The position numbers and the translations under genes were made by a program. Below the pieces are notes generated by a model that worked only from the letters and a program-made list of their open reading frames with translations, did no database searches and was not told the DNA's origin. 64,000 nt of DNA from Aptenodytes patagonicus (taxonomy: Eukaryota; Chordata; Aves; Sphenisciformes; Spheniscidae): the NCBI RefSeq assembly GCF_965638725.1, contig NC_134974.1, positions 2,998,143 to 3,062,142 of the forward strand. The letters are read 5' to 3'. Each line of letters opens with the position of its first letter. The first letter of the stretch is position 1. Positions 642 to 21,700 of the stretch are shown piece by piece.

Positions 642-4537
<3,896 letters not shown>

Positions 4538-7782: not shown

Positions 7783-9739
<1,957 letters not shown>

Positions 9740-10311: not shown

Positions 10312-11865
10312 GCTGGTGCATAGTCTGTGGGAGGGGGTGTGGGGATGGTCCCCCACTTGGTGGGACCCCCAGGTCCCTGTTCTCTGAGGGAGCGGGGTGG
10401 AGCCCCCTGTTAAAAGCAGCCCCGCAGGTCCCCAGGGCCAGGCTGTCCCTGCCTGGGGGGGCACAGGCAGGGGTGTCCTCAGGATGCGGGTGGAGGGTTC
10501 CCCCCTTGGGGGGTGCTTTGGGAATGGCTTCATCCCCACCCCGGGATCGCGTATCACCCTCCGATTTGGGGTTTTCCCCGTGAAATTCTGCTTAATTTAT
10601 CAGCCACCAGGTCTCAGCCCCTGGAGCCGGGGCCTCGTTTCCCATTGTGCCACTCTTTGCAGCAGCGATGAAAGACGCCGCCACTTGCTCCTCTTCCTCG
10701 GGGGACGAAGGCCTTGTGGCGCCACGTCCCTCCAGGCATCAAAGTTTTGCTTGGGGCCAGCTTTGGTGGTGGTTCCCAGCCCCGGCTCCCACCGCAACAC
10801 CACCAAGAGCAGCCACAGGAGGTACCTGAGCTGCTGCTGGTGATGAGAGGAAAAAAAAAAGGTGTTTTGGGGTGGTTAAAATAAAGGCATTTGGGGGATT
10901 TGCACCGGGGTTTCTTGGCGCTCAGACGCGAGGTGGCTGCAGGGCCAGTCCCTGCGATGCCCGATGCTGTGGGGTGACGGGGGACCCTGGGACCTGGCGT
11001 GGAGCCGCAGCGCGTTGTCAGAAATAGCTCCCTGGAAAGAAAAACAGCGTTGGTGGCCAAAGGCAGGGCCCAGGGGATGCCCTGGGGGCGCGGGGGTCAG
11101 GCTTGGCCCCTGCTTGCTCTGCAGACTTATTAGGGAAAAGACAATTATAGCCCCAGCGGCAAGGCGGGGCGGGGGGGGGGGGGGGGGCCCCTCCCTCGTA
11201 GCCTCGGTCTGTGTCAGCGTGGGAGTGAGCGTTCCCGGTCTGCTCCCCCATGGAGTCGGATGGTGCAGCTGCAGGATGGGGCTGTGGGCTGGCACCGAGC
11301 CCTGGGGCAGGAGCGCTCCCGCTCCGCTCCAGCGCAGAGTCAGCTCATCACCCCAACTGCCTGCACCGACGCTGGGGCCGTGGTCCCTCCCCGAGCCCCG
11401 CTCCCAGGATGGTGACAGTCACCGCTGGGTGAGCGATGGCCACGGAGGGAGACCCCCCGCCTGCCCCGGGGGACCCCTACCCACAGGGCAGGACCCGAGA
11501 CTCGGCCTCTGCCTTAATTGGGGTGAGCTTTAATTAACGCAAATGCAATGGCTCGATGGGGATGAGGGGGAAGGTGGCCCTAGGGTGGGGCACAGCCCTG
11601 ATGGGTGGCCTTGGGGACAGCCCCCACCAGCTGAGGGGGTCCCTAGGGTGCCATGAGGATGCTCTTGAGACATCACCTCACCCCTGGGGAAACTGAGGCA
11701 CAGTGGCAGTGCCCTCCCCTTCTCTGTGGGAGCTGGCAGGCCTCCATGCAATGAGTTCACAAGTGCTCAGCCACACTCTGCCCCACCCCCACCCCAAGAC
11801 ACCCCCACCTCCAGCGGGGAACAGTGACAAGCCGGGGTGGACACTGGGCTCCTGGAGATGTGAGT
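10312..11865. other. PCP4L1-MPZ tail-to-tail spacer
   Basis: No exon recognised on either strand. Contains an alternative AATAAA at 10879, a 17-G run at 11171-11187 and short 'GGGGAAACTGAGGCAC' text near 11685, which is too short to classify as a SINE. Confidence 0.5.
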
Positions 11866-11871
11866 TTTATT
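11866..11871 (-). promoter_or_regulatory. MPZ: Poly(A) signal of MPZ (minus strand)
   Basis: TTTATT on the plus strand reads AATAAA on the minus strand. It lies about 880 bases after the MPZ stop and about 680 bases after the end of the readthrough frame. Confidence 0.7.
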
Positions 11872-12548
11872 AATGGCGCCATGGGGATGGGGGGGACACG
11901 GACAGGGCATAGAAAAACACGTCAAGGAGCGGCGCCTGGCTCTGGGGTGATGGGCACCGGCAGCTCCTCCAGCCCGGCCACAGCCTCTCCTCCTCCACGA
12001 GGCTCCAGCCAGCGTGGGGGGGCCGGGGGTTATGGGACGGGAGGGTTAATGGGGGACAGGAGCGGGACGGAGGGGACGGGGCGGGGGCCACCCCGCAACG
12101 TCATTTGGGCTCGGTCGCAGGAGAGACGAGAAAACGGCCAGAAAAGGAGCAACGATGGGGGCAGAGAAACCCTCCCGGAGACCGGTTTTGGGGGGAACAC
12201 GGGGAGGGATGGGGGCGGCGTGGTCCCGCAGGGACCCTGCAGGTCCCTGAGGAGGGGGGGACCGAGGCAGCCCGGGGGCGACAGGCCCAGAATTCAGTGG
12301 TTGCATCTTCAAATAGAAAAAATTACATCAGTGCCCAGGGCTGGGCAGGGCAGCGGTTGCGCAGAGGAAGGTACCGACCAAGGGGCTTCAGGTCGGGGCA
12401 GGGGGACACCGAGGCATCCCTGAGGCCAGGGGACCTGGGGCGAGGACCACACCCCGCTCCTCGCCGGGTCCCGTGCCCCAGGGCGGCCGCTTCCCGGAGC
12501 CGGGGGGGCGCCACGTCCTGGCCCTCTCCCTCCGCCGGCAGCCAGGCG

Positions 12549-12746
12549 TCAGGTCCCCGAGTTCGGCTTGATGATGTGCATCAGGGCGCTCTTGAGGCTG
12601 CCCTTGCTGGGGGAGCGGACGGCGGGCGGGGGGCGGGCGGCCTCGGCGGCCTCCCCCCGCAGCTCCATCTCGATGGTCATGACGACTTTGGGGGGCCGGG
12701 TGGCCCCGGCGCCCGCCCCCGCAGTACCTTCCCTGCCCGCTAACCG
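12549..12746 (-). CDS. MPZ: In-frame 65-codon extension after the MPZ stop (L-MPZ-type readthrough)
   Basis: Directly after the MPZ TAG the same frame stays open for 65 codons, then TGA at 12549-12551. The stop context is TAG CGG TTA. The encoded tail starts RLAGREG, then has PPKVVMTIEMELR, then RPPPAVRSPSKGSLKSALM and ends HIIKPNSGT. From memory, the mammalian L-MPZ isoform made by stop-codon readthrough carries LAGR, KVV-T-EMELR and RPAV-SPS-SLK-AL words in the same order, so this part of the 3' UTR appears to be conserved coding sequence. The tail is basic and serine-containing, fitting a cytoplasmic kinase-target extension. Readthrough in birds is inferred from sequence only. Confidence 0.8.
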   Translation of the reverse strand, partial: RLAGREGTAGAGAGATRPPKVVMTIEMELRGEAAEAARPPPAVRSPSKGSLKSALMHIIKPNSGT

Positions 12747-14508
12747 CTATTTCTTATCCTTGCGGGAGTCTCCCGGGGCTCCCTTGGCTTTCTTCTCGCT
12801 TGCTGCCTTGGTGCCACGGCTGTGGTCCAGCATGGCGTAGAGCACGGGCGCCTGCGGGGACGGGGCAGCATCAGCGCCACGGTACCCCCCTGCCCTGGAG
12901 GCTTCACCCCGCAGCCTCTCCTCCCACCCCAAAAGGTAGGAGAGGTGTTCGCCCCCCCCGGCTAGGCCATTTTGCCCCTTCCAACCCCTCGGCGCTCACC
13001 TGCCGGCTGCGCTTGGACGCATCCTTGGCTGATCGCTGCAGCTTTCCCTTCTCCATGGCACTAAAATTGGGGTGGAAAGGCAAAAAGGCGTCTCAGAAAG
13101 GCCAACCCCCCCCCCCCCCCCCCCGGTCCCTCCCAGCAGCCCCGTTTCAGGGTGGTTTTGCCCCAGTTGGGCAGTGGGGCTCACCTCAGCCGTCGCTGCA
13201 GGGCTGCCTGCCGCCGCAGCCAGCAGTAGCGGATGAGATAAACGAGGGCCACCACCACGGCCACCAGCAGCAGAGCCCCGCCAATGATGGAGCCCAGCAC
13301 GACGCCGTAGCGGGTGGGCACTGTGGGGACACCGGCGTCCCGTCAGCCCCCCCTGGCTGGAGCAGGGAAACTGAGGCGGGGAGGGGTGTACGCCGGCGCC
13401 GTACCTTTCTCGAAGACGTAGAGCGTGACCTGGGAGGACTTGCCCACAATGTCAGGGGGGTTCTTGACGTCGCAGGTGAAGGTGCCATTGTCGGTGTAGT
13501 CCAGGTTGTGGATGACGATGGAGCCATCCTTGCGGCGAGGGTTGCCCACCCACTCCATCCGCTCCTTGAAGCTGCCCACGTCATCGATGTAGGGCTGGCC
13601 CTTGGCATAGTGGAATATCTAGCAACGGGGACAGACACACAGACATCGGGGTCACGGTGCCTCCAAGCACGGCAGGGCCACCCCGCACCCCGAAGCAGAG
13701 CAGGCGCTTACGGAGGTGCTGTCGCGGGATCCCTCAGCTTGGAAGTGCCACGTGATGGAGATGTCCTCGGAGATCCACTCGCTGGACCAGAAGCTGCAGG
13801 AGAGGGTGACGTGGGAGCCGACGGTACCGTACACCTCCCGCTGCGTGTACACGTGGATGGAGGATGTCGGGGACGGCCCTGCCAGGGGGCACAAACCCGT
13901 CAGCCCCGTGGGGGACCCCGGCACAGGGATGGTGCCCATCACCAGGGCCGCCGGCTGGTCTGTCCCCCCACGCTGGCCCCGTGCTCAGCCCCGTGCTGCC
14001 ACCAAAGGACTTTTGTTGGCCCTGGAGAAAGCACAAGGACTGGCGGGGGACAGCGGCTCTTTGTGTCACCGCGAGTGCCTTTGCAGGGAGCCTCCGCCCT
14101 GGCATCCCCACTGCCAGCTCAAAGGGGACCATATCCCAGCGCCGGCTGACACCTGGGGATGCTGGCAGGGCTGGGTCTGGCTCCCAGCACCCCTCTCCCA
14201 TCCCCAGGGAGGTGGCTGGTGCCGGGATTCTCCTTGCAGCCCAGTGATGGGGACCGGGGCACGGCCACAGATACGGCCCTGGAGCATTGCCACCACCAGT
14301 GACAGTCCCAAAAGCAGATGTGTGGGTGGCCGCCAGCCCCACAACCACCTCCCGGGGGTCTGGAGTCCCCTGGTACCTCCCAGCATCCAGGATCAGAATT
14401 TCAGGACCAGCAGCCCTGGTCCCCCATCCCTGTCCCCAGCTTACCCAGCACCAAGAGGAGCCCGGCGAGGAGGAGGAGGCTGCTGCTGCCCCTGGCACCC
14501 TGCGACAT
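12747..14508 (-). CDS. MPZ: Myelin protein zero (P0)
   Basis: Single-Ig-V transmembrane adhesion protein that compacts peripheral myelin in Schwann cells. Six exons on the minus strand: 14445-14508, 13712-13878, 13405-13618, 13185-13320, 13000-13060 and 12747-12851. They sum to 747 bases, 248 residues, the same length as human. The signal peptide is residues 1-28 (SSSLLLLAGLLLVLG core). The mature start IHVYTQREVYG, Ig cysteines in TLSCSF and FTCDV, the glycosylation sequon in DNGTFT, a transmembrane stretch (GVVLGSIIGGALLLVAVVV) and the basic tail ending SRKDKK are all present. Exon 5 carries MEKGKLQRSAKDASKRSRQ and exon 6 the VLYAMLDHSR tyrosine motif. No frame break is seen. The stop is followed by a conserved-looking in-frame extension described separately. 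Convergent with PCP4L1 and divergent from SDHC. Confidence 0.96.
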
Positions 14509-15730
14509 GGTGGCTGCCTGTCACCGGCCGGCTCCGAGCCGCATGGAGGGCTGGCGGTGCGCAGGGCCCAGCGGCGTGCCGAAGGGTGCTGGCGGGACGG
14601 GGGCCGAGGTTTAAGAGCAAGCAGCGCTGAATGATGCCAGCGGCGCCCCGGCCTCGGGCCAATGGGCGCCAGGCAGCCGGGGCGGTGGGGGCCAGGGGGT
14701 GCCGGGTGCCCCGGGCTGAAAGGGGGCATTTAGTTTGGCGATGGGCGAGGAGGGGGAAGCATGCGGCGGGGGGGGGGGGGGGGCCAGGCACACAGCGCCC
14801 TTTGTCCGGCCGCATTCCCGCCCGTGGCGGAGGCGGCTCGGCAGGAATGTGGCCGGAGCTGGAGGGCACCAGCACACGGCCGTGGTCCCCGGTTGGTCCC
14901 AGGGACGGACCTGCCTGGCGGGGCTTGGGGTCTCGCACCAACTGTGCCATGGGCCACCGGCGCATCCCCTCCTGTCCCATGGCCGTGGGCTGGCTGCCGA
15001 CACCCTCCGGTGCGGTCCCCACTCCAGCCCCACAGCACGGGGCTCCCCAAGCTGGCACTGCCAGCTCCGGCCAAGTGCGCTCCCAGCAGCCTCTGCTCTG
15101 GCTCCATTTTGGGGTGAAAACACACCTTTGAGCGGGTGGTGCTGGATGTTCCCCCTGGGCACGGAGCTGGCTGGCTCCAGCTGCGGGACGCGGGGCACAT
15201 CCGTCCCCGCAGGGAGCCACCAAAGTGCCACTGCCCCGTGCAGAGCCCAGGGCAGGAATTTGCACAATGCCTCCCCGTCTGCTTTGCCGCCGGCTGAGGG
15301 GCGAGTGGTGTTTTGGGGTGAAAAGCTCCAAAGTGGGGTTTTCCTCAGGTTTTTGACCCAGAGAGTTCGCGGCTGGGGAAGGGAGGGCGCGGGACGGGGA
15401 CGGGACTCGCCCGGGAGCTGCGAGGTTTTCCTGCTTCCATGTCCTCCATCGGCTGCAGCTGCGGGCGAGAGGGTCCTGGTGGGCTGGGGAACCGGGGAGC
15501 CCCGGTCCTGCCCCCCGGCAGCTCTGGGGTGGACGGGCAGCCCCGGGGGGGGGGGGGGGGGGGGGTAACGGGCAGCCCCGGTAAGGGCAGCCCGGGGGGT
15601 AACGGGGAGCCCTGGGAGTAACGGAGGGGGGGGGGGGGATAACGAGCAGCCCCGGGGTTAACGGGGGGTAACGGGGGGTAACGGGCAGCCCGCGGGTATC
15701 GCGCAGCCCCGGGGGGTAACGGGCGGCGGG
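14509..15730. other. MPZ-SDHC divergent spacer with minisatellite
   Basis: Upstream of both MPZ (minus) and SDHC (plus). From 15545 a 23-G run leads into an array, to about 15725, of an approximately 20-base unit 'GGGGTAACGGGCAGCCCC' with 8-10 imperfect copies. A 16-G run lies at 14768-14783. No exon is seen. Confidence 0.6.
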
Positions 15731-18700: not shown

Positions 18701-21700
18701 TACTGCATCCTCGAGACCGGCTGTAGGACAACTGAAGAGCAGCAGAGCTTCGTTTATCTACTGTTAATGAAACAGTGGGAGACACTGGTACAGATGCTTG
18801 CGTGTTTGACAAGATTAATTAGTGTTTGTTGCTGTGCTGCAGATGAGCACACGAAATGTTATTACACACCTTGTTCTTGTCATGTCGTCAGGAAAGGCAG
18901 CGCTGCTTGTTACGTGTTGTCCTGGAGAGGAGCGGGCGCCGCAGATTCCAGCCCACATCTGCAAACGCTCGAGCTGCGCTGGGCTGGGGGCCTGTTCCTC
19001 CCCGTTCCTGGAGAGATGCCCTTGAATGTCAGAGTTGCGGTTACTACAATCGCTCCGCAGAGAGTGGCACCCACTCCTTCGGGCACCACAAAATCCCTTT
19101 TTACCTCCCGCCCCGAGCCTCGGCGCGGCTGAAACGCTGCGTGCGCTGAGCTGCGACAGTGACCTCCCATCTCTCCGGTGCTTGGAGCTTAACGAATGGC
19201 GGCGGCGAAACGCTGTAATGAGAACAAGTGTTTGGAGGAAGGGGGGTTGATGTCTTCATCTTGGACGTGTGGAGAGTGGTGGCCTGAACCAGCCCTTTCC
19301 GTGGAGCTTGGCAGATGCGCCTTTCTGGGGACGTGTGCCGCCCGCCCCAATAATTGCTGTAGTGAGAGTGAAAAATGGACTGCCTCAGTGTAGCTGTGAG
19401 CTTAGAGTGCTGTTTATGTCTGTCTTACAAACAAGGTATTACAGCTGAGCAGACTTAATTACAGGGTGTTGTAAAGAATGAACCCCCAGGCAGAATCTAG
19501 AGACTGTAGTTAAGAGCTTAGCGTAAGAGAGAGAGGATTTGTGGAGGAACAGTCCAGATCCTCTCGTGTTAAGATTGATTTTAAGATACGAATCATCAAA
19601 GTGGCAAATCCCCTCCCCTGCCCCATCTTGCTGGCATTTTCAGGCGTTTATTTGGCACTCACAGAGCCTTTCTATCTTCTCTTGCAGATGTGTCGGTCGG
19701 CGATGCCTGCTGACTCGGCTTGGCCCCAGCCTTTCTGTGCGACAGTGAGTCCGAGGTTTTACTGAGAGTAACGGGATTAAGTTCTTCCCTGAGGGACCCT
19801 GTCTAAGGCTTTGGGGCATGTGTGCGCTCCATCCGCTTAGTAATTTTGGTCAATCAATGCCATGTGTTAGCTGGGCACTTACCGCCTCGTGCCACCACGA
19901 GGGCACGGCCTATTTACGGGGGATGTAAGTGGGTGAAGGGAGAGCCTGGCTGGCTGCTGAGGTGGGCCTGGGTCTCTTGCAGGGGTGGCGGTACCCCTGT
20001 CACCCCTCTGTGCCGCTCTGCGCGACAGCTTTGCACCTGAGGAGGGCTGGGAGCCACAGAAGCCTTCTTGTTCCTGTCCTTCGTGCTGCTGGGCTTAGGG
20101 AGAAATAGTTATTTTCTGCTAAATTGGTCTCTAAGTGTAATTGCTGTGTAATCTCAGGAACATTAAATTACAAGCTCTTTATTTGGTACAGTGTGCAATT
20201 ACCGTGGCAGTAAAGAGCAGGTTGCATGTTATCAGCATTATATAATGTGTTATCTGATATCCTATACCCTGATTTGGGTGGTGCTGGGGGGGGGGGGCGT
20301 GGCTCGGCTCTGCTGGCTGAGTGGATTCCAGTGCAGCAGCTTCCCATCCTGCTTATTATTATTAGTCACTCGGGAAAGCTGGCAGCGATCCTCTCCTTGC
20401 CTGTGTCCACGCACAGCTGGAGCCGTTCTTTGTACTGTCAAGGTCAGCCGGGAGCTCACGTCCTGCGAGATGGAAAGCTGCTGCAGCAAAGCCTGGTGGA
20501 GCGGGCAAGGGTAAAACGCTGCCCACCTCTCTGCACCTCCCGTCTCCTCTTCTTTTGCAGCATTGTCCCGATGGGAACAACGGCCAAGGAGGAGATGACC
20601 CACTTCTGGGAGAAGAACACCAAGTCCAATCGTCCCTTGTCCCCTCACATCACCATTTACAAGTAAGAGCCTCTTGGCCTCCTCAGCTTCGCACTGGGGC
20701 ACCCCCGGGCTCTGGCACACGACAGCCCTGTCCCCGGAGGCACCCACTGTCCGTTCCCACTGTCACTTCAGGTGGAGGATGGGGAGACCTTCTGCATTGT
20801 GCTGTGAACAGTCTGAGCTGTGTGTGGGAATCACAGCCTCTCCCACAGAGTTGATGACGCTCAACAACCCTTTTCATACAGGGTGTAGCGGAGGGGTACA
20901 GTCCCCCCAGAGCTGCGCCTTGGAGTGCTTGAGCAGGGCAGCGTTTCCAGACGTGCCGTTGAAAGGCAGCTGCCTCCGTGGAGGGTGGTTGCGCAGAACA
21001 GTGCGTCCCGCCGCAGAGTTGGCGGTCCTCGGGGGTGGAGGCAGGAGGCCAACTTGGGGCTCTCGGGTTCCCTTCTCAGAAAGGTGCCGGCTTCTTTGAG
21101 GCCGCCTCCGTCACTTTTCCAGGTTCTCTCGTTTATCCGTGAGCCTGGATGCCCAAACCCTGCCCCTTTGTTCCTCAACTGCAGGAGCATTACAGTCTAA
21201 CCCTGTTTCATCTCCCTTTAAGCTTTCTCAGCAGATGCCCTTCCCCTTCCCAAACCCGTGCCAGTGGCATTTGCCATTCCCAAGCTGCCTCTGCAAATTC
21301 CCCTGTCTCTCCCCTTTTGCTCTGACTGGATTCCTTGAATAACTCCGAGTACAGAAATACCCGCCCAGCAGCACAGAGCTCTCTAGGAATAGACGGGCTG
21401 TGCTTTGTCCTGCGGCCTTGGAGGCCTCCCTGGTGTTGTGCCCTGTTTTGCTGACGAGATTGGTTGTTTTGCAGGTGGTCCCTGCCCATGGCGATGTCCG
21501 TCATGCACCGGGGCACCGGTGTTGCGCTGAGCTTAGGTGCGTGCATCTCCCACCTGCTTCTGGTGACAGGGTGGGGGCTGCGGGAGGGAAGACCCCTCTG
21601 ACTGATTCGGAGACGTGACTACAGGTGGACGTTTTCTCTCCTCTGTCCCCAGCTTCAGGAATGGGTTTTCTCCTGGGAAACATGCGCTTTGTCCTCTCCC

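Follow-up and report, generated by a model that had tools for sequence, protein, structure and literature searches.

Introduction

L-MPZ is a form of P0, the product of MPZ, that occurs in the peripheral nerve of tetrapods and arises by readthrough of the P0 stop codon, as passages of PMC7070019 describe. Passages of PMC4973966 likewise state that L-MPZ is produced by readthrough and that it is increased by G418, and both papers describe conservation of the P0 stop context and tail between frog and human. An antibody to phosphorylated PKC substrates binds L-MPZ bands in mouse nerve, and the authors suggest that there are one or two PKC sites; mice with L-MPZ in place of P0 develop a neuropathy, for which a raised L-MPZ/P0 ratio is given as the cause (PMC7070019). 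Related cases are described in sections of PMC4132726, where a stop codon followed by C is treated as weak. The genes OPRL1, OPRK1, AQP4 and MAPK10 combine a conserved frame past the stop with a 3' C, as bird MPZ does, but they use UGA-CUAG where bird MPZ has UAG with CGGUUA. For a UGA construct of OPRL1, the same sections indicate that all six bases of the CARYYA readthrough hexamer appear to matter.

Here we describe the MPZ locus of Aptenodytes patagonicus in the window, by which we mean the whole stretch of 64,000 nucleotides that was analysed, and we compare the reading frame behind its stop codon with L-MPZ. According to the title of the L-MPZ paper, conserved sequences around the stop are reportedly essential for readthrough. 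The primary comparative paper on L-MPZ is Yamaguchi and Baba 2018; in the passages of open papers that were searched, nothing more on birds was found.

Results

The minus strand carries a complete MPZ (P0) gene from position 14508 to position 12747, with six exons, GT/AG splice sites and 248 codons that end at an in-frame TAG. Exon 1 (14445..14508) encodes a signal-like peptide with its ATG in GCCACCATG; it has a GTAAGC donor and shares its frame with exon 2. The Ig V domain is divided between exon 2 (13712..13878), which encodes its first half and was placed by splice sites and by the PF07686 match of the joined protein, and exon 3 (13405..13618), which encodes its second half and was placed by comparison of the joined protein with the P0 extracellular domain 1neu. 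Exon 4 (13185..13320), assigned from its splice sites and frame, holds the hydrophobic, transmembrane part. Exon 5 (13000..13060) is cytoplasmic, and the canonical coding part of exon 6 (12747..12851) runs to the TAG at 12749-12747; both were assigned from PF10570, which spans residues 183-248 of the joined protein. All six exons lie on the minus strand. In Pfam the joined protein matches PF07686 (Ig V) with an E value of 1.2e-21 and PF10570 (Myelin-PO_C) with an E value of 6.9e-30, and in the PDB three P0 structures rank best (1neu, E 8.1e-69). The protein therefore has the feature set of MPZ, namely an Ig V domain, one transmembrane segment (judged by eye) and a Myelin-PO_C cytoplasmic domain.

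The exon-intron structure of MPZ is intact and SDHC is its neighbour; in mammals, SDHC likewise adjoins MPZ. The SDHC exons lie on the plus strand at 20574-20660 and 21476-21538 of the window. Joined and translated, they give 51 residues with matches to 14 PDB sequences at E <= 0.001, and the best four matches are the SDHC chains 2fbw, 2h88, 1yq3 and 2wqy, which are tied at E 2.1e-26 and which we take to be avian; 1zoy, presumably porcine, has an E value of 2.5e-24. On the plus strand at about 9592-9739 there is also an acidic stretch with an IQ-like motif, which in our view resembles PCP4L1, and a Pfam search with this stretch gave no match.

On the minus strand the surroundings of the MPZ stop read AAG GAT AAG AAA TAG CGG TTA GCG GGC, and the stop context AAG AAA TAG CGG TTA GCG GGC AGG occupies 12732..12755. 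The initial annotation had described a frame that stays open for 65 codons after the MPZ TAG and had picked out words within it, and we confirmed both the coordinates and the words. The L-MPZ readthrough extension (12552..12746, minus strand), assigned from its match to a provisional human tail and from its GC3 excess, translates from 12746 to 12552 as RLAGREGTAGAGAGATRPPKVVMTIEMELRGEAAEAARPPPAVRSPSKGSLKSALMHIIKPNSGT and is closed by a TGA at 12549..12551, read from 12551 to 12549. An AATAAA at 11866..11871 on the same strand, downstream of the extension, is by sequence match only the likely polyadenylation signal of MPZ. Since it lies beyond the tail, the tail should be part of the mature MPZ mRNA.

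The reference for comparison was a provisional version of the human L-MPZ tail, at 63 residues, which is the length given in passages of PMC7070019. Six tail peptide strings were sought in the open literature and none was found, so the human tail is used here as a provisional sequence. Against this reference, 32 of the 63 aligned residues of the bird tail are identical, and each of the two gaps is one codon long. The local score is 125, compared with a mean of 25.3 and a best of 56 among 5000 shuffles, and the other five frames score between 20 and 29. The earlier claim that the words of the tail match those of mammalian L-MPZ in order is borne out, with the human side provisional: in the same gene, LAGR, PKVVM-IEMELR, PAV-SPS and SLK-AL follow one another in the same succession. 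Mouse MPZ ends in TAG (PMC7070019); the stop of the bird gene is also TAG, and here it stands within AAG AAA TAG CGG TTA. At 65 codons the bird tail is two codons longer than the 63 residues of L-MPZ in the same source, and its first third is rich in alanine and glycine. The net charge is +5 in the bird tail and in the provisional human tail, and the helical amphipathicity of the bird tail is unremarkable and placed differently from that of the provisional human tail. PKC-type sites have the form [ST]-x-[RK]; taken as a motif match only, the bird tail has one (SLK, tail residues 50-52) and the provisional human tail has three. The locus therefore has, in frame with MPZ, an extension close to 63 residues long that contains the conserved core (human side provisional) and, as a motif match, a PKC-type site in the tail. 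The differences between the bird tail and L-MPZ look like ordinary differences between orthologues.

These results argue strongly, with a probability that we put at roughly 0.94, that the tail is the avian orthologue of the L-MPZ extension and is reached by occasional readthrough of the P0 stop. Most ribosomes would halt at the UAG and release the 248-residue P0; in a minority, a near-cognate tRNA would decode the UAG and translation would run on through 65 codons until it reached the UGA. The UAG would be weakened by the C that follows it and by its CGGUUA context. In the product, the cytoplasmic tail of P0 would be lengthened and would contain one PKC-type serine (S-L-K) that also occurs in the provisional human tail. 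By analogy with mouse, L-MPZ would make up a small share in myelin and the ratio of L-MPZ to P0 would be important. That ribosomes read through this stop in this species, and that the tail has a function, we infer from published work on mammals and tetrapods.

The C directly after the stop implies a weak stop, by the rule given in sections of PMC4132726. By eye, CGGTTA fits the readthrough hexamer CARYYA, as given in the same sections, at five of six positions. The signal UAG CARYYA is of the tobacco mosaic virus type; the bird gene also has UAG, but the second position of its hexamer is G instead of A. Three RNA folds around the stop were no stronger than shuffles (z 0.25, -0.54 and -0.49), a 117-base fold gave a z of -1.80 and was equalled or exceeded in stability by 10 of 200 shuffles, and an Rfam scan of 11800-14800 found nothing at gathering score. 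An RNA stem-loop that stimulates readthrough is thus unsupported by the folds against shuffles and by Rfam. GC-rich hairpins were seen within the tail coding region (12630-12720, minus strand), the first long helix beginning 28 bases past the stop, and they probably reflect composition.

In the same genome, a further last exon (L016, reverse complement of about 2905-3003), which we take to be that of MPZL1, encodes GPVIYAQLDHSGGQHSDKINKSESVVYADIRKN followed by a stop. It lies directly behind a CAG acceptor, as does MPZ exon 6. Aligned with the coding part of MPZ exon 6 it scores 53, the best of 5000 shuffles being 38; the alignment is strong over the first dozen residues and weak from there to its end. 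On this alignment, the last exon of MPZL1 is homologous to MPZ exon 6. By eye, the residues past the MPZL1 stop look unlike the MPZ tail.

The initial annotation had laid stress on the frame being open in GC-rich DNA, which proved to be weak evidence. Starts matched for GC (0.70-0.80), taken at steps of 7 bases on both strands with coding sequence included, are open for at least 65 codons in 2090 of 3947 cases in the window, so that openness is not above chance. First-order simulations, with the tail placed one codon off, gave a chance of 0.35 to 0.44 for such openness, and the plus strand across the tail bases is open too. The counts and the open opposite strand would suit a frame that is a by-product of GC-rich DNA, where stops are rare and the translation is meaningless, but such a by-product would not be expected to align with the provisional human tail in this frame alone and with codon-sized gaps. 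The codon positions also argue against it. GC1/2/3 values are 0.66/0.63/0.92 in the tail, similar to the 0.58/0.46/0.86 of the MPZ coding exons; they are 0.80/0.815/0.68 in the 195 bases past the TGA and 0.63/0.615/0.71 in the following 195. The GC3 excess of the tail, 0.277, was matched by none of 100,000 single-base permutations and by 28 of 3471 segments of the window with matched GC, each read in a single frame and with coding sequence included. The codon-position composition of the tail is coding-like and is reversed right after the TGA, and we regard a meaningless frame as extremely improbable.

If the tail is translated, the UAG might instead be bypassed, either by A-to-I editing (UAG to UGG) or by splicing that removes the stop. 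Editing would be invisible in genomic DNA, and for splicing there are two GT dinucleotides in the canonical part of exon 6 and several AGs past the TAG. Neither GT, however, has a donor-like context by eye (CCCGTGCTC and GCCGTGGCA), and the published isoform is ascribed to readthrough, with the increase by G418 as noted in passages of PMC4973966, which makes a bypass very unlikely. We give next to no credence to a third reading, in which the MPZ/MPZL1 ancestor had a second MPZL1-like motif (VVYADI) and the tail is its remnant, cut off by a later stop. The last exons of MPZ and MPZL1 do start alike (G/A-P-V-x-Y-A-x-L-D-H-S), and in both the tail and the motif VV precedes acidic and hydrophobic residues, but the alignment of the tail with the last exon of MPZL1 scores only 12, where shuffles average 16.6, and a leftover of the MPZL1 tail is therefore unsupported.

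Searches for relatives of the tail covered several sources. No second copy was found among the candidates scored in the bird's own genome, the sole other match having an E value of 4.34. Among viral contigs, 170 pattern matches to the tail gave no confirmed relative, and 594 pattern matches to exon 6 with the tail among prokaryote genome contigs likewise gave none. A Pfam search with the tail returned no families, and a PDB search returned one chance match (E 1.8).

Discussion

On the readthrough reading, this locus is a further example of the L-MPZ tail, which other tetrapods are already reported to make, and no new phenomenon. The initial annotation had proposed that readthrough of P0 predates the split of birds and mammals. 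The match of the bird tail to the mammalian L-MPZ extension, with the human side provisional, indicates that the extension is older than that split and so lends the proposal support; because conservation from frog to human is already in print, the proposal is not new.

A gain of the tail after the split of MPZ and MPZL1 fits the comparison of the two last exons, on the basis of one paralogue in one genome. Tentatively, and with rather more doubt than confidence, we suggest that the MPZ/MPZL1 family may originally have ended at the P0 stop, since exon 6 aligns with the last exon of MPZL1 almost as far as its stop, if weakly in the second half, and that the tail may have been recruited later from what had been 3' UTR. 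In that case leaky termination alone would have preserved it in tetrapods, and the bird would have retained only the one PKC-type serine that matters.

With this locus, a case of readthrough that is already known and of medical relevance gains a clean sequence from a bird. The positions common to the bird tail and the provisional human tail point to PKVVM-IEMELR and SPS-x-x-SLK-x-AL as a working core.
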